This document shows positions 23,506-45,809 of a DNA stretch of 64,000 nucleotides, one piece after another; positions within the stretch are counted from its first letter, which is position 1, and each line of letters starts with the position of its first letter. A program made the translations under genes and the position numbers. The DNA comes from Rhodonellum psychrophilum GCM71 = DSM 17998 (GTDB lineage Bacteria; Bacteroidota; Bacteroidia; Cytophagales; Cyclobacteriaceae): contig NZ_KB906675.1 in NCBI RefSeq assembly GCF_000381545.1, forward strand, positions 62,001 to 126,000. Direction: 5' to 3'. The notes under the pieces are model-generated. The model saw nothing but the letters and a program-made list of their open reading frames with translations, searched no databases and was not told the origin of the DNA.

Positions 23506-23553
23506 AGCATAAATATTTAATCGGATAAAAACGTCCGATTAAATATTTATGCT
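23506..23553. promoter_or_regulatory. Perfect 20-bp inverted repeat, probable Rrf2 operator
   Basis: AGCATAAATATTTAATCGGA is followed after 8 bases by its exact reverse complement ending at 23553. The element directly abuts a -7 box at 23554 and covers the expected -33 region of the Rrf2 gene, so a bound protein would block RNA polymerase. Rrf2-family repressors commonly autoregulate through AT-rich dyads. Arms of 20 bases are longer than a single dimer site usually needs, so two dimers or a DNA hairpin are also possible. Confidence 0.7.
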
Positions 23554-23561
23554 TACATTTG
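23554..23561 (+). promoter_or_regulatory. Putative -7 box of the Rrf2 gene (TACATTTG)
   Basis: TACATTTG matches TAnnTTTG and lies 16 bases before the ATG at 23578, immediately after the inverted repeat. Without a clear TTTG at -33, the promoter may be weak or activator-dependent. Confidence 0.55.
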
Positions 23562-23577
23562 AGAAAACTAAAGAGAA

Positions 23578-24012
23578 ATGTTTTCAAAAACTTGTCAATA
23601 CGGTATCAAGTCAACGCTTTACATTGCCTTGCAATCGATAAATGAAAATCGTGTAAGCCTCAAAGACATCGCAAAGGAAATAGATTCACCCGAGGCATTT
23701 ACGGCCAAGATTCTCCAAAAACTTGTTCACGCAGGAATCATCATATCCGTGAGGGGACAAATGGGAGGTTTTCTGATTGAGAGAGAGAAAATGGATTCCT
23801 TGAAATTAATCCAAATCGTAAATGCGATAGATGGGGATCACATTTTCGTAGAATGCGGATTGGGATTGAGTCAATGCAATTCAAGTTTCCCTTGTCCCCT
23901 ACATGAACAATTTTCAAAGATCAGGACGGATTTGAAAGCCATGATGGAGACAACCAGCCTCTTGGGTTTTGCCACTGGACTGCACGATGGGCTTACTTTC
24001 CTGAAGCGTTAA
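23578..24012 (+). CDS. Rrf2-family transcriptional regulator (NsrR/IscR-like)
   Basis: The 144-residue protein starts FSKTCQYGIKSTLYIALQSI and has the Rrf2 winged helix with VSLKDIAKEIDSPEAFTAKILQKLVHAGIIISVRGQMGGF. The C-terminal loop carries three cysteines (VECGLGLSQCNSSFPCPLHEQF), the spacing expected for an Fe-S ligand set like that of NsrR or IscR. Its neighbours are the RIC repair protein and a hemerythrin-like protein, so it probably senses nitric oxide or Fe-S damage and controls this cluster. The perfect inverted repeat upstream is its likely operator. Confidence 0.88.
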   Translation: MFSKTCQYGIKSTLYIALQSINENRVSLKDIAKEIDSPEAFTAKILQKLVHAGIIISVRGQMGGFLIEREKMDSLKLIQIVNAIDGDHIFVECGLGLSQCNSSFPCPLHEQFSKIRTDLKAMMETTSLLGFATGLHDGLTFLKR

Positions 24013-24236
24013 AAAAAAATTACCACTTTAAAGGATATTCGCATCTTATATTATTTATTTAATCAAGAGAATTTACAGCAAAACAACCCAAAACAGGACG
24101 TCAAAATACTGGGGGAATTTTCAATTCTCAAAATCAGAACAGCCTCTTTTCTTCAAGTGAAGACTATTCTGATGATTTAATCATGAATTTATTTCATTGG
24201 AATTCACAAAAATATTCAAAAAAAAAAAATAAAAAT

Positions 24237-24962
24237 ATGACAACAGTACAGTTAAAAACAATCGGAGAAATGGTAGCAGCGGATTACAGAACCGCTCAAG
24301 TTTTTAAGAATCACAATATTGATTTTTGTTGTAAAGGCAACCGAAGCATTCAGGAAGCCAGCGAGAGTCAAAACGTAGATCCGGCTGTGGTAATCCGCGA
24401 AATTGAGGCTTTGCAAGAATTGGGAAAAGAAGAAAACGAGAATTACAAATCATGGCCACTGGATCTATTGGCGGATTACATCGAGAAAAAGCACCACAGT
24501 TATGTCTCTACCCAAATCCCCATTTTGAACCAATATTTGGAGAAACTCTGTCAAGTACATGGAAAGGTCCATCCTGAATTGTTCGAAATAGCCGAGGAAT
24601 TTAAACATTCAGGTGGCGAATTGACCGCCCACATGAAAAAAGAAGAATTCATTTTGTTCCCTTTCGTACGAAAAATGATGCAGGCCAAACAAAGCAGTTC
24701 TAAACTGGAAAAACCCCATTTCGGAAAAATTGACAATCCGGTTCAAATGATGATGCATGAACATGAAGTGGAAGGTGACCGCTTCAGGAAAATCGCTGCG
24801 CTGAGCAATGATTTTACCCCTCCAAAAGATGGATGCGGTACTTATCAAGTGACATATGCTTTGCTCAGGGAATTTGAAGAGGATTTGCACCTCCACATCC
24901 ATTTGGAAAACAATATTTTATTTCCCAAATCCATCGCAATGGAAAAAGAATTGAACGGATAA
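24237..24962 (+). CDS. ric: Iron-sulfur cluster repair di-iron protein (RIC/YtfE/ScdA)
   Basis: From ATG 24237 the protein has 241 residues. The N-terminal ScdA domain has TIGEMVAADYRTAQVFKNHNIDFCCKGNRS with the conserved Cys-Cys pair. The hemerythrin-like C-terminal part provides iron ligands in KKHHSYV, HMKKEEFILFPF, MMHEHEVEGD and HIHLENNILFP. RIC proteins repair Fe-S clusters damaged by nitric oxide or peroxide. It sits 224 bases downstream of the Rrf2 regulator in the same orientation, which supports NO-responsive control. A longer start at 24183 adds only a Lys/Asn-rich stretch and is not preferred. Confidence 0.93.
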   Translation: MTTVQLKTIGEMVAADYRTAQVFKNHNIDFCCKGNRSIQEASESQNVDPAVVIREIEALQELGKEENENYKSWPLDLLADYIEKKHHSYVSTQIPILNQYLEKLCQVHGKVHPELFEIAEEFKHSGGELTAHMKKEEFILFPFVRKMMQAKQSSSKLEKPHFGKIDNPVQMMMHEHEVEGDRFRKIAALSNDFTPPKDGCGTYQVTYALLREFEEDLHLHIHLENNILFPKSIAMEKELNG

Positions 24963-25136: not shown

Positions 25137-25312
25137 TTTAAACCAGAAATATGCACTAGGCTTCCTAAGAAGGTTGAAACTGCAAGAAAATCAGACATTT
25201 GGGATAATAATTCCTGACACCGATACGGTGAAGTCAACAAAAGTCAACAACTGACTAATTATAAGATAAATACAGTATTGAGCAGCATTCACAGTATATA
25301 AAACGGGTTAAA
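25137..25312 (-). repeat. Dispersed ~170-bp intergenic repeat, copy 6 (reverse orientation)
   Basis: Reads on the plus strand from TTTAAACCAGAAATATGCACT through GAAAATCAGACATTTGGG, CCTGACACCGATACGGTG and AAGTCAACAA to AAAACGGGTTAAA. It ends 4 bases before the ATG of the hemerythrin-like gene, so the mRNA leader of that gene must begin inside or upstream of the repeat. Confidence 0.82.
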
Positions 25313-25316
25313 CATC

Positions 25317-25784
25317 ATGACTGACAAAAAGCCACTTAAAAGGAATATCGAACTCCAACCCTTAAGCAGGGAGCACCACCACAGCCTTTTGTTGTGCTGG
25401 AAAATCAGAAAGGGATTTTCCCTTGAGATTCCGGTAATTAGAATAAAGTCCTATGCAGATTGGTTTTTTTTGAATTATCTTCAACCCCATTTCAAGATTG
25501 AGGAAGATTTCCTCTTCCCCATACTGGGATTGGAACATCAGTTGGTCAAAAAAGCGATCGGGGAACACCGTAGACTTGCCAGATTGTTTCACAAGGAGAA
25601 GGAAATCGAAAAGTCCTTAAGTTTGATCGAAGAAGAATTGGAAAAGCATATCCGTTTTGAAGAGCGAGAACTGTTCAATGTCATTCAGCAATCTGCCACT
25701 GAAGAACAAATGAAAGCTCTCATTGAAAACCATACTGAGACTGCTTTCGAGGAAAACCCGATGGATGAATTCTGGAAAAAATAA
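25317..25784 (+). CDS. Hemerythrin-like domain protein
   Basis: The 155-residue protein has the HHE/hemerythrin ligand pattern in a four-helix bundle: LSREHHHSLLLCWKIR, HFKIEEDFLFPIL, IGEHRRLARLFH and HIRFEERELFNVI. Hemerythrin-like domains bind O2, NO or act in iron handling; with RIC next door an NO-related role is favoured. The start codon follows a dispersed repeat by 4 bases. The pentapeptide-repeat gene begins immediately after the stop codon (25785), so both are translated from one mRNA. Confidence 0.88.
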   Translation: MTDKKPLKRNIELQPLSREHHHSLLLCWKIRKGFSLEIPVIRIKSYADWFFLNYLQPHFKIEEDFLFPILGLEHQLVKKAIGEHRRLARLFHKEKEIEKSLSLIEEELEKHIRFEERELFNVIQQSATEEQMKALIENHTETAFEENPMDEFWKK

Positions 25785-28433: not shown

Positions 28434-29135
28434 TCAATTATAATGATAGTGTGGTATTTCGTTGGAAACACCATCCCTTTTATTCGCTATTGGGATAGTG
28501 GGGGTAAGTAGCGCATTTTTCGCCAATCGAAAAAAATAAACCATCCAACTCACAATGCCTATCATTTTTGCCACCATTCCAAAAAGCACTGGATCAAAAA
28601 ATCCCAACTGCATCAAATCAATCGTCAAAGAAACAGCAAAGAAAAACATAGAGATGCCCAATAGGCTATAATCGGTCCTACGAATCAACGAATGATAGGC
28701 GGTAAGGTACAACATCAAAAATGCCCCATAACCTGGAAGAATGAATATCCTGAAAATACCGAGAAAGGCTGCTACTTGTTCATGGATAAGAAACACATCA
28801 TCCAGGAAAAAAATCAATGTTAACATACCGGACACAAATAAAAACCGACTCATCCTGGCTCTTCCTGCCCGACTGGAAAGAACCTTGGATACAAAAAAAC
28901 ATATTGTTATCGACACAGACCAAAAGAACCAACCAATCCGAAAAAAAATCCCCGTATACAAGGGGGACTCCAAGAGCGTCATCGGATGCTGGAGTAGTGT
29001 AGTGTAGGGCGCATTGGCCCACGCTTTCCCTATCAATAAGCCACAAATTAAAATTATGCAAAGCAATAGGGTCAAACCGATTGCAGCACGATTTGATTTA
29101 CCTCCATTGGGCAGAAACGAAAATTGTATATTCAT
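28434..29135 (-). CDS. Polytopic membrane protein of unknown function
   Basis: The 233-residue protein has about six hydrophobic segments (residues 18-40, 60-82, 96-115, 125-145, 155-175, 182-203). A central LIFFLDDVFLIHEQVAAFLG has acidic residues and a histidine inside or at the edge of a membrane helix, a pattern seen in a group of uncharacterised bacterial membrane proteins with DDxFLxHE. This could be a metal or proton site. Monocistronic, convergent with the SAM synthetase gene. Confidence 0.65.
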   Translation of the reverse strand: MNIQFSFLPNGGKSNRAAIGLTLLLCIILICGLLIGKAWANAPYTTLLQHPMTLLESPLYTGIFFRIGWFFWSVSITICFFVSKVLSSRAGRARMSRFLFVSGMLTLIFFLDDVFLIHEQVAAFLGIFRIFILPGYGAFLMLYLTAYHSLIRRTDYSLLGISMFFFAVSLTIDLMQLGFFDPVLFGMVAKMIGIVSWMVYFFRLAKNALLTPTIPIANKRDGVSNEIPHYHYN

Positions 29136-29747
29136 TTATTTTTGATCAAAAAATGTAACCCCCAGATCAATATTCAATTCTTAAATTCACCCAACAGCAT
29201 TGGTATTAACTGATTACTCAAATTCAAAGGCACAATATTATCCGATTGAATATTACTTTTTGAATTGAAGCAATATAACCAAAATAAAATTTTAACGGCT
29301 ATCCTTAAAATGATTTAAAAAATATTTTCATGTTTTTTCTTACAAAAATCACCACCATTCCATATCAATTGACAGAAAATAAATTTTATTTCATATTTTG
29401 ATTACCTATTAAATATTAAAGTAGTATTTTTATAACTATTTCAATATTAATTGTAATCATAAAAAATCTAAACTTAGAGAATATAGAATTTGAAAAATAG
29501 AAATGAAGAAATCGCTCTCCCAATCGATTAAAATCACTTCAGTAAAATTTGACTCAAGGTGTTTTTGAGTTGATTTCAGAATGCCCAAAATCACTTTATA
29601 GTATCCACTTGATGGTGACAATGAATTGGGAGCCTCCAATACCGCTATTTTTGATGCCAAATCATTGGCATTGACTAGATTTTTTCTTTGAAAACAACAC
29701 CAAACAGAAGAGGAAAAAAATCTTCTGTTTTATATAGAACCAATCCG
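29136..29747. other. Intergenic AT-rich region before glucan phosphorylase
   Basis: About 610 bases between divergently oriented genes. The part 29280-29470 is especially AT-rich. A minus-strand frame at 29457-29660 shows no family features and no suitable start. The promoter of the phosphorylase gene should lie in the last 150 bases; TTTTATATAGAACCAATCC is near 29728. Confidence 0.45.
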
Positions 29748-40511: not shown

Positions 40512-41079
40512 GCAAAAATTGATTGTTTGGGGAGGGAAACCTCTTTTTTAAAATTCTTTCGCGAGAATAGGGAAAACTCAAAAATCATATTGATGAGAAT
40601 TGGCTTTGATTCAGGCTCCAAGAAAATAATAGCATAAAGAATGCTATTATTTTCTTGGAGCCTTGTGTTTAGAATTGGTTTGAGATTTATCGGATTCGAT
40701 CATTGATTTTTTTAGAAAAATCGCATTTCAGAAGAGTATATTTTTTTGAATTTTTTTCACCATGGCAAGAGTCAATAGCAATTCGATCAATTCCGAGGAT
40801 CCAAAAACAAGGAACAATACCTTAAAAAAATTTCATTTTTTATAGCTTTTCAAATCTGTAAATTTGATTAAGCGTATTGTTTACCCTATCACTGTATAAT
40901 TTTAATGATTTAGGTCAATTGGGTCTTTGACTATCTCCCAAAACAGATAGTTACCATTGATCGACCCAAAGAAGCTTTTGCCTAAATACCGGCTTATTGA
41001 GTAAAGTGAAAATTCAATTCTTCAGCATCCGAAAAAAGGCGATTTTTCAAGGTCTCTGTTGTGATAAAATAACATTGCA
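40512..41079. other. Intergenic region with a strong hairpin
   Basis: About 570 AT-rich bases between the first carbonic-anhydrase gene and the FkbH-like pseudogene. It holds the hairpin at 40613-40663. No reading frame of interest was found, and the upstream region of the pseudogene has no obvious promoter. Confidence 0.5.
40613..40663 (+). terminator. Long perfect hairpin after the carbonic-anhydrase operon
   Basis: A 23-base arm (AGGCTCCAAGAAAATAATAG, ending GCAT at 40635) pairs perfectly with its complement at 40641-40663, with a 5-base AAAGA loop. It lies about 100 bases after the stop. There is no long T-tract, so it could act as terminator, processing site or bidirectional barrier. 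Confidence 0.6.
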
Positions 41080-43108: not shown

Positions 43109-45598
43109 ATGAATATGAAAAAAAGTTTAACAGTTATGGGTTTCCTTTTGCTTTTCCAGGTGGGATTTGCACAGGAAAACGTAGAAAAAGGCAACTATGA
43201 GCTTGCCGCTAGATTTTCACCCGAAAAGCTTAAAAAAATGATTTTCTCCACCTCTGTGGATCCGCATTGGCTAAAGAAATCAAACAAATTCTGGTATGAG
43301 TACGAAACCCCAGAAGGTAAATTTTATTACTTAGTAGATCCTGTCCAAAAGTCAAAAACCCAATTGTTTGACAGGGATAAACTGGCCATGGAAATCACCA
43401 AGATCGTCAAGGATCCATTTGATGGACAAAACCTGAAATTGGAAAACTTGAAATTCATGGAAGATGAAAACACCATCAGGTTTAAAGTGAAAGGCACTGA
43501 AGAGGTCCTGAAAAAGGATTGGGCTGAAATCAAGGAAAAAAACAAGAGTGCCAAGGATTCCTTGGAAAAAAAGACCTTTGTTTTCCAATACAACCTGTCC
43601 AATCGACAACTCACCGAAATCAAGGATGCCGCTAAAGATCCAGAGCGTCAGGCTTGGGCAAACATTGCCCCGGATTCCTCCAAGGTGGTATTCGCACGCA
43701 ACCACAATCTCTACTGGATGGACAAGGAGAATTTCCTGAAAGCCGTGAAAGATGAAAAAGACAGTACCATCGTGGAGCACAAGCTTACTGAAAACGGGGA
43801 AAAGGATTTTGATTATGGCAGTGGCGGAAGAGGAGAAGACAACGAGGAAGAAGAAAAAAACAAGGACAAACGAAAAAGAGCCGGCATCCTATGGGGACCA
43901 GACGCAAAGCAGTTTGTTTTTTCGCGAACAGACAACCGGAAAGTAAAAGATCTATGGGTATTGCACAATTCCAGAAATCCCAGACCCACTTTGGAAACCT
44001 ACAAATATGCCATGCCGGGAGAAAAAGAACAGCCGGTACAAGAGCTTGCACATTATTCTTTCACAACTGAGAAATTAAATGTCCTGCCCGTGGGCACTTA
44101 CAAGGACCAATCTTTGGGTCTTTGGTCAGAAAGTTTGCCGAAAAACGCAAGGGATGATGACTTCAAGCCTGTGAAATGGTTGGGAAATAAGGATTCATTT
44201 TACTTTTCTCTAAGTTCCAGAGACTTGAAAAAAATTGACATCTGCAGATGGAACCTGACGACAAATCAAAAAGAGGTAGTTGTAGAAGAAAGAAGCAACA
44301 CCTATATAGAAATCGTAAAACCAGAAATCATCAATGACGGGAGAGAAATCATCCATTGGTCAGAAAGGGATGGATGGGGTCATTTGTACCTTTATGGAGC
44401 AGATGGCAGCCTTAAAAGGCAACTGACAACCGGTGCTTTTCATGTGGACGGCATTGAAAATGTGGATACAAAAGGCAGAAAAGTATTTTTTGTGGCCAAT
44501 GGCCGTGAAAAAGGAGAAGACCCCTACTACACCCATCTTTACAGTGTCGGATTGGACGGTGGTGCTGTCACGCTGCTCAACAACGGGAATTTCAACCATG
44601 ACGCTAACCTAAACGATCAGGGAAGTTATTTTGTCAACAATTCATCCAGGGTCAATACCGCACCCGTTTCCATCTTGCATGACGCCAGTGGCCGCAAGGT
44701 GATGGATTTGGAAGCGACTGATTTATCCGCATTGTTTGCCGCAGGCTACAAATTTCCAGAGCCTTTCCAATTCAAGGCCGATGATGGAATCACGGATCTT
44801 TATGGGGTGATGTACAAACCTTTTGATTTTGACTCCACCAAGTCCTACCCGATCATCCAATATGTGTATCCGGGACCACAAACGGAAGCCGTCAACAAGG
44901 CTTTTGGCAGAGGGATGGATCGTGTTGATCGATTGGCACAATTTGGTTTTGTAGTCGTGACTTTGGGCAACAGAGGTGGACATCCAGGTAGGTCTAAATA
45001 CTACCACAATTATGGGTATGGAAACCTTCGGGATTATGGATTGGCGGACAAAAAAGCAGGTGTCGAGCAATTGGCTGACAGGCATTCTTTTATCGACAAG
45101 TCAAGAGTGGGTATCCACGGACATTCCGGAGGTGGATTCATGTCCACTGCGGCCTTGTTGGTTTATCCAGACTTCTTTAAGGTCGCGGTGTCCAGTGCCG
45201 GAAACCATGAAAACAACATCTATAACCGTTGGTGGTCGGAGAAGCACCACGGCGTGAAAGAGCAGATTTCGCCTAAAGGAGACACTACCTTTGTCTATCA
45301 GATCGAGAAAAACCCTGATTTGGCCAAAAACCTTAAAGGAAAGCTCTTATTGGTCACTGGAGATGTAGACAACAATGTCCATCCGGCCAATACAATCCGA
45401 ATGGCAAATGCACTCATCAAGGCCAACAAACGCTTCGATTTCATCATCCTCCCAGGACAGCGACATGGATTTGGCGACATGACAGAATATTTCTTCTGGA
45501 GAATGGGCGATTATTTCGTCCAGCACTTATTGGGCGATAACTCTCCCCCACCGGTGGATATGCTGGAGGTCCAAAGAGAAAAAGCGCTAGTTAAGTAA
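43109..45598 (+). CDS. S9-family serine peptidase (dipeptidyl-peptidase-like), secreted
   Basis: From ATG 43109 the protein has 829 residues with a signal peptide (MKKSLTVMGFLLLFQVGFAQ). The N-terminal half is a beta-propeller (WANIAPDSSKVVFARNHNLYWMD; FVFSRTDNRKVKDLWVL). The C-terminal alpha/beta-hydrolase domain has the nucleophile motif GIHGHSGGGFMS, the Asp in VTGDVDNNVHP and the His in LPGQRHGFG. Such enzymes trim dipeptides from proline-rich peptides in the periplasm. The longer frame from a TTG at 42962 has no sense as a leader. A terminator follows at 45607. Confidence 0.93.
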   Translation: MNMKKSLTVMGFLLLFQVGFAQENVEKGNYELAARFSPEKLKKMIFSTSVDPHWLKKSNKFWYEYETPEGKFYYLVDPVQKSKTQLFDRDKLAMEITKIVKDPFDGQNLKLENLKFMEDENTIRFKVKGTEEVLKKDWAEIKEKNKSAKDSLEKKTFVFQYNLSNRQLTEIKDAAKDPERQAWANIAPDSSKVVFARNHNLYWMDKENFLKAVKDEKDSTIVEHKLTENGEKDFDYGSGGRGEDNEEEEKNKDKRKRAGILWGPDAKQFVFSRTDNRKVKDLWVLHNSRNPRPTLETYKYAMPGEKEQPVQELAHYSFTTEKLNVLPVGTYKDQSLGLWSESLPKNARDDDFKPVKWLGNKDSFYFSLSSRDLKKIDICRWNLTTNQKEVVVEERSNTYIEIVKPEIINDGREIIHWSERDGWGHLYLYGADGSLKRQLTTGAFHVDGIENVDTKGRKVFFVANGREKGEDPYYTHLYSVGLDGGAVTLLNNGNFNHDANLNDQGSYFVNNSSRVNTAPVSILHDASGRKVMDLEATDLSALFAAGYKFPEPFQFKADDGITDLYGVMYKPFDFDSTKSYPIIQYVYPGPQTEAVNKAFGRGMDRVDRLAQFGFVVVTLGNRGGHPGRSKYYHNYGYGNLRDYGLADKKAGVEQLADRHSFIDKSRVGIHGHSGGGFMSTAALLVYPDFFKVAVSSAGNHENNIYNRWWSEKHHGVKEQISPKGDTTFVYQIEKNPDLAKNLKGKLLLVTGDVDNNVHPANTIRMANALIKANKRFDFIILPGQRHGFGDMTEYFFWRMGDYFVQHLLGDNSPPPVDMLEVQREKALVK

Positions 45599-45606
45599 AC
45601 AAAAAA

Positions 45607-45637
45607 ATCCAGTGGTGATCACCACTGGATTTTTTTG
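45607..45637 (+). terminator. Hairpin terminator after S9 peptidase
   Basis: ATCCAGTGGTGATCACCACTGGAT is a perfect palindrome at 45607-45630, quoted here as ATCCAGTGGTGA paired with its complement, followed by seven T. It begins 9 bases after the stop codon. Confidence 0.85.
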
Positions 45638-45809
45638 TTTACTTGGAGGGCCCTCTTTATAGAATCCTATTTCATCTATTGACCCGATTTTCCAATCAAA
45701 AAGTAGGGATAGATTCAATTCGTTATCGATTCCAATTTTTGTTGGTGAGAAAACAACTTTTCACTAACGCAAAAACAGGCTTGTGAGAACACTCGAAAAT
45801 ATGTTTTCT

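Follow-up and report, generated by a model that had tools for sequence, protein, structure and literature searches.

What does a long, perfect inverted repeat do when it lies directly before a regulator gene and runs up to its promoter? The question is raised by a locus of Rhodonellum psychrophilum GCM71 = DSM 17998 (NCBI RefSeq assembly GCF_000381545.1, contig NZ_KB906675.1, positions 62,001 to 126,000), a stretch of 64,000 nucleotides that is called the window here and whose own numbering is used throughout. Comparison with related loci indicates that this dyad is very probably the autorepression operator (op1) of the adjacent gene for an Rrf2-family regulator (rrf2). The features that carry this reading, including scores from a position weight matrix (PWM) and a structure predicted with AlphaFold 2 (AF2), are the following:

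23506..23553, no strand assigned: extended dyad operator (op1) with 20-bp arms and an 8-nt centre; relatives have symmetric flanks to about +/-17 bp
23523..23536, no strand assigned: conserved operator core GGATAAAAACGTCC, consensus GGAYA-N4-TRTCC; found in 66/80 orthologous loci, PWM score 17.6, best in the window
23554..23561, + strand: TACATTTG, sigma-A-type -7 box of Bacteroidota; equally spaced TAnnTTTG in 52/66 loci, predicted start near 23566
23578..24012, + strand: Rrf2-family regulator with Cys93/Cys100/Cys106; PF02082 81.9 bits, AF2 fold, Cys motif in 80/80

The dyad, its conserved centre, and the promoter

The dyad is built from a left arm AGCATAAATATTTAATCGGA (23506-23525), a centre TAAAAACG, and a right arm TCCGATTAAATATTTATGCT (23534-23553), and the two arms are perfectly complementary. 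The -7 box (23554-23561) abuts it, and the ATG follows 16 nt further on at 23578, exactly as an earlier note on this DNA had given it in coordinates and letters. The 20+20 bp dyad is real and far beyond chance: in Markov simulations of the local composition (40 x 64 kb) the longest arm did not exceed 14 bp. In the 5.19-Mb genome (genome-wide statements are pattern searches), the 20-bp arm has no other copy at 0-2 mismatches and only one other site at three.

For comparison, 80 loci with rrf2 orthologues (53-66% identity) were taken from other Bacteroidota genomes, and the 130 bp 5' of each gene were scanned for GGAYA-N4-TRTCC and scored out of 10. The core was found at a score of at least 8/10 in 66 loci and of at least 9/10 in 61, where dinucleotide shuffling gives expectations of 6.2 and 0.42 per 80, respectively. 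It stands about 52 bp 5' of the rrf2 ATG, its centre mostly at 44-56 bp, and the operator consensus in the relatives is about TTAATTCGGATAAATTTGTCCGAATTAA. A PWM trained on the relatives' loci, with the window's own site left out, gives that site 17.6 and the runner-up in the 64 kb 11.3. The earlier note had proposed an Rrf2 operator fused to the promoter together with autoregulation, and had held that absence of the dyad before orthologous rrf2 genes would speak against this; the presence of the core before so many of them supports the proposal. The 8 bases that were taken for a spacer thus lie inside the operator and are part of its conserved core. The 20-bp arm as the recognition unit has to be given up, as a genome scan with the half-site returns the dyad alone; the conserved unit is the 14-20 bp dyad centre and not the arm. 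In the own genome seven places fit the 20-bp operator pattern with 0-1 mismatch, and only three of them are intergenic, all at rrf2 paralogue loci. The core by itself (GGAYA-N4-TRTCC with one mismatch) was rejected as a definition of targets because it is too loose, with 706 genomic matches versus 436 for the reversed control; the exact matches that were examined are mostly intragenic.

Downstream of the core, a TAnnTTTG element begins 14-20 nt away, mostly 16-17, in 52 of the 66 sites (shuffled mean 0.48). The position of this box in Flavobacterium psychrophilum, -12 to -5 (PMC9723704), puts the predicted start near 23566. Counted from that start, the dyad would span -60 to -13 and the core -43 to -30, with the ATG at +13. 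A scan for E. coli-type sigma-70 promoters gave no signal beyond chance. Bacteroidota promoters carry TTTG as their -33 box. The right half of the operator consensus reads TTTG-TCC, with its TTTG at the -33 box position, and favours G where the symmetry of the left half predicts A (40 versus 11 sites, p 6e-5). This T..G asymmetry is absent in a promoterless second operator (op2, described below), and op1 thus seems to have bases in common with the -33 element.

With 20 perfect pairs, the window has the longest arms among 69 distinct promoter operators, followed by 16, 16, 15, and 14. These arms are the extreme of a family-wide trait of promoter operators: in the op1 flanks, pairing within a locus exceeds that of permuted partners out to about +/-17 bp (slid partners score lower), and the symmetry reaches z 7.0 when one locus per genus is counted (0/1000 shuffles reach the observed value). 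In op2, the flank symmetry has a z of 1.0.

The second operator, the neighbouring genes, and the paralogues

Four further features lie downstream of op1:

24010..24021, + strand: stop codon of rrf2 and conserved A-tract (TAAAAAAAAATT); 34/36 op2 loci versus 4/660 other gene ends
24030..24049, no strand assigned: second operator (op2) in degraded form, AAAGGATATTCGCATCTTAT; intact left half, conserved op2 position, score 0.1
24237..24962, + strand: RIC (YtfE/ScdA-type iron-sulfur repair protein); TIGR03652 238.5 bits, above the cut-off; follows rrf2 in 55/80 loci
25317..25784, + strand: hemerythrin-domain protein; PF01814; relatives in 24/80 loci

Strong op2 sites are found about 18 nt past the rrf2 stop in 41 distinct loci, and in 39 of these the centre lies at +459 to +463 from the rrf2 ATG. 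The site precedes ric in most loci and the gene of a NorB-type nitric oxide (NO) reductase in Aquimarina, and TAnnTTTG follows it in 0 of the 41. Cytophagia-type loci often show a variant, GGATAAAAAGGTCTTAA, in which the GGATA half is intact but the right half is degraded. The site in the window, at +452, has the same build with a PWM score of 0.1 and is a decayed positional orthologue with about one good half-site left. The earlier statement that no similar dyad precedes the RIC gene stands for a full dyad and falls for a degraded one, and the weaker half sites suspected there were right in substance, because the GGATA half sits at the conserved op2 position. The A-tract (A5+T2+, of the TAAAAAAATTT type) lies directly 3' of the rrf2 stop in the op2 loci counted above, the other gene ends being taken from the same loci (L065-L144), and the window retains it despite its decayed op2. 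Helical phasing between op1 and op2 was dropped as a test of looping because the distances spread over less than one turn. Judged by motif and position, dozens of related bacteria have the same switch, often in two copies, at the gene of this regulator and at the genes that partner it. No earlier description of this operator was found in the literature searched, whose coverage excluded most subscription journals.

The neighbouring genes suggest what is controlled. A same-strand RIC gene follows rrf2 in 55 of the 80 loci, and the RIC gene of the window is likely co-regulated with the regulator. The hemerythrin-domain gene is a possible further member of the regulon; no operator was found before it, the site at 25199 being unsupported with a score of -2.3. 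Near rrf2, a truncated globin occurs in 27/80 loci, a hemerythrin relative in 24/80, and nos-type genes, named by eye from sequence without a family model, in about 20/80. The genes ric, norB, nirK, and truncated globin lie behind or beside operators and nosZ in a paralogue operon, a set that fits targets in NO detoxification and repair. RIC, truncated globin, hemerythrin, nosZ, norB, and nirK as neighbours support a role in NO and denitrification and bear out the NO-stress context proposed earlier. In Pseudozobellia thermophila an operator scoring 25.2 (L084 7443-7462) precedes the gene of a copper nitrite reductase (nirK) with a C-terminal cytochrome c domain. A conserved protein of ~615 aa (HSFHIPVMGLGYTIDTPLKVAKYGISS) with no convincing family match is encoded beside ric/rrf2 genes in 7/80 loci, in two cases preceded by an operator-like site; copies lie at L157 1528-3384 (G000:C7), L143 5467-7305, and L094 302-2152.

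The own genome encodes four close rrf2 paralogues:

C3 (window): rrf2-ric-hemerythrin
C8: rrf2-ric-cytochrome protein-nosZ
C21: rrf2 with cbb3-type oxidase-like subunits
C7: rrf2 near another ric

The C7 paralogue has no recognisable operator. At C8 (L149, G000:C8:102000-113000) the operon consists of rrf2, ric, a gene for a 602-aa cytochrome c domain protein, and a Sec-dependent nosZ, with an operator scoring 18.1 before rrf2. In the paralogous subfamily of C21 and its relatives (L156 (G000:C21), L196, L199, L200, L209-L238), whose own-genome copy adjoins cbb3-type oxidase-like genes, both operators read CGATA..TCG instead of GGATA..TCC. Classed by their outer base, op1 and op2 change together: 46 loci are G-G, 13 C-C, 1 C-G, and 0 G-C, although common descent inflates these counts. 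A candidate specificity position is residue 47, located in the helix that follows SPxAFTAKIL: 72 of 76 G-type proteins have Gln or His there, and 11 of 11 C-type proteins have Thr, Ser, or Gly.

Other sites in the window lie apart from the rrf2 locus. The second-best operator-like site (29227-29246, AAGGCACAATATTATCCGAT, score 11.3) stands 5' of the minus-strand gene 28434-29135 and may be due to chance. A further four dyads, whose arms measure 16-26 bp, are terminator-like and lie at or near gene ends; they include a loopless perfect inverted repeat of 26 bp (45593-45644) and one of 23 bp with a 5-nt loop (40613-40663), both at or just after a gene end.

Proposed mechanism and competing explanations

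The conservation of op1, the promoter geometry, the position of op2, the co-variation of op1 and op2, and the gene context are established by sequence comparison, and from them we infer binding, repression, an iron-sulfur cluster, NO sensing, and a roadblock. A regulator dimer would bind the central GGATA-N4-CGTCC, and the symmetric AT-rich flanks would provide additional contacts or cooperativity. Bound in this way, it would cover the -33 position and abut the -7 box, so that RNA polymerase would be barred from the rrf2(-ric) promoter. NO, the likely signal in view of the gene context, or another signal that damages the predicted cluster on Cys93/Cys100/Cys106 would free the operator, and the regulator and RIC would be induced. 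In many relatives op2, which lacks a -7 box of its own, may exert additional control ahead of ric or norB, and the simplest form of this would be a roadblock to read-through; in R. psychrophilum it has decayed to about one good half-site. We put forward a wider proposal tentatively, holding it at somewhat less than even confidence: an apparently undescribed, Bacteroidota-wide regulator may run NO and denitrification genes through two operators that lie about 510 bp apart. One, ~34 bp long and symmetric, would belong to the promoter and cover the -33 box; the other, without a promoter, would be fixed ~18 nt past the regulator stop, behind the A-tract, and serve as a roadblock or loop partner. 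Specificity (GGA..TCC vs CGA..TCG) would then have been split among the paralogues of a single genome for separate ric, nosZ, and cbb3-like oxidase operons.

Some observations weigh against an autorepression operator that overlaps the promoter. The window core has AAAACG where the consensus has AATTTG, and the TTTG of the -33 box is missing here. Fourteen of the 80 orthologues, several of them from Flavobacterium, have no core of at least 8/10 in the 130 bp 5' of the gene. Shared ancestry reduces what the co-variation of op1 and op2 can say, and it is only from its position that the site is taken to serve a repressor and not an activator.

Different functions for the dyad can also be considered. 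Treated as a single strand, the dyad has a very favourable fold (z -6.3 with DNA parameters) and is listed by a loose terminator scan, as would be expected of an RNA hairpin (terminator, attenuator, or leader structure) in place of a DNA operator. This is highly improbable, as the -7 box lies 3' of the dyad at a spacing conserved in relatives, and the predicted start (about 23566) therefore falls past it; moreover, no T-run of an intrinsic terminator follows, and the unpaired loop is part of the core, which many relatives keep without long arms. It is also improbable that two regulator dimers sit side by side, one per AT-rich arm, instead of one in the centre. Each arm does hold its own palindrome, TAAATATTTA, the 48-bp element has room for two dimers, and RsrR offers a precedent, its own promoter having two full sites next to each other (PMC5015018), but the arm palindrome is not conserved in the orthologues, whereas the central GGAYA-N4-TRTCC is.

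Two further explanations accept the operator, and each is unlikely without being far-fetched. The core may be the true operator and the long outer arms a functionless by-product of templated mutation (quasipalindrome correction in replication). Template switching is known to turn imperfect inverted repeats perfect, and the arms in the window are perfect outside a mismatched centre. Flank symmetry, however, is seen across the family in promoter operators and not in the equally palindromic op2, which is unexpected for, and argues against, a purely mutational origin; a function of the arms is putative. The signal, in turn, could be iron-sulfur status, redox, or O2 rather than NO, since RIC and cbb3-type oxidase genes are also linked to redox or iron-sulfur clusters, the closest solved relative is the redox-sensing RsrR, and the regulator scores below the NsrR cut-off. 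Set against this is the recurrence of norB, nirK, nosZ, truncated globin, and RIC as partners, which speaks for NO and denitrification. We retain the reading of the dyad as op1 of an autorepressed rrf2 gene, with NO as the likely signal.

Comparison with known Rrf2 regulators

The regulator is a member of the Rrf2 family by both profile and predicted fold. It matches PF02082 over the whole protein (81.9 bits versus a cut-off of 30) and scores above the cut-off of TIGR00738, and its AF2 model (predicted local distance difference test, pLDDT, 91) has as best PDB matches the Rrf2 proteins RsrR, CymR, IscR, and NsrR at 15-25% identity. A Cys-x6-Cys-x5-Cys motif past the DNA-binding domain is present in 80/80 orthologues, and Cys93/100/106 form a predicted iron-sulfur cluster site. 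The regulator stays below the cut-offs of the NCBIfam models for NsrR (NF008240, 26.1 bits versus 182) and IscR (TIGR02010, 49 bits versus 207.55) and of the curated RirA and CymR models.

Among solved Rrf2 proteins, RsrR of Streptomyces venezuelae is the top structural and profile match (about 20% identity). Both regulators have operators at their own promoter, but RsrR has a different motif and different targets (PMC5015018), where RIC and denitrification genes are found here. IscR shares the family, the three-Cys region, and autoregulation; it differs in that its model is below the cut-off and that the partner genes here are recurrently NO-related.

Clade II nosZ (N2O-consuming) and NO-handling genes are numerous in Bacteroidota, and the literature searched gives no operator for their control. 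Rrf2 genes beside nos genes have been reported in clade II nosZ clusters on Bacteroidota-type scaffolds (PMC6264515). As at the loci described here, Rrf2 adjoins nos genes there, and the query proteins of that study are Rrf2 proteins of Maribacter/Flavobacteriales; the portions of the account at hand give no operator or mechanism, unlike the present analysis. With a defined motif, the promoter geometry, and a candidate specificity residue, the regulon becomes testable, and sequence alone may suffice to assign Rrf2 paralogues to ric, nos, nor, and nir operons.

NsrR, the NO sensor of Proteobacteria, Bacillus, and Streptomyces, shares the Rrf2 fold, a three-Cys motif, NO-defence targets, and, in some species, autoregulation. 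Its operator consensus gATGyAT-N5-ATrCATc (PMC1274295) differs from the GGAYA-N4-TRTCC found here, as do the Cys spacing (x6/x5), the conserved second operator after the regulator gene, and the model score below the cut-off. The NsrR/IscR-type label of the earlier note is therefore not earned, given that both curated models are far below their cut-offs and that the operator departs from the NsrR consensus. The regulator of R. psychrophilum would work like NsrR, as an Rrf2 protein with NO-related targets, and is yet not to be filed as NsrR.
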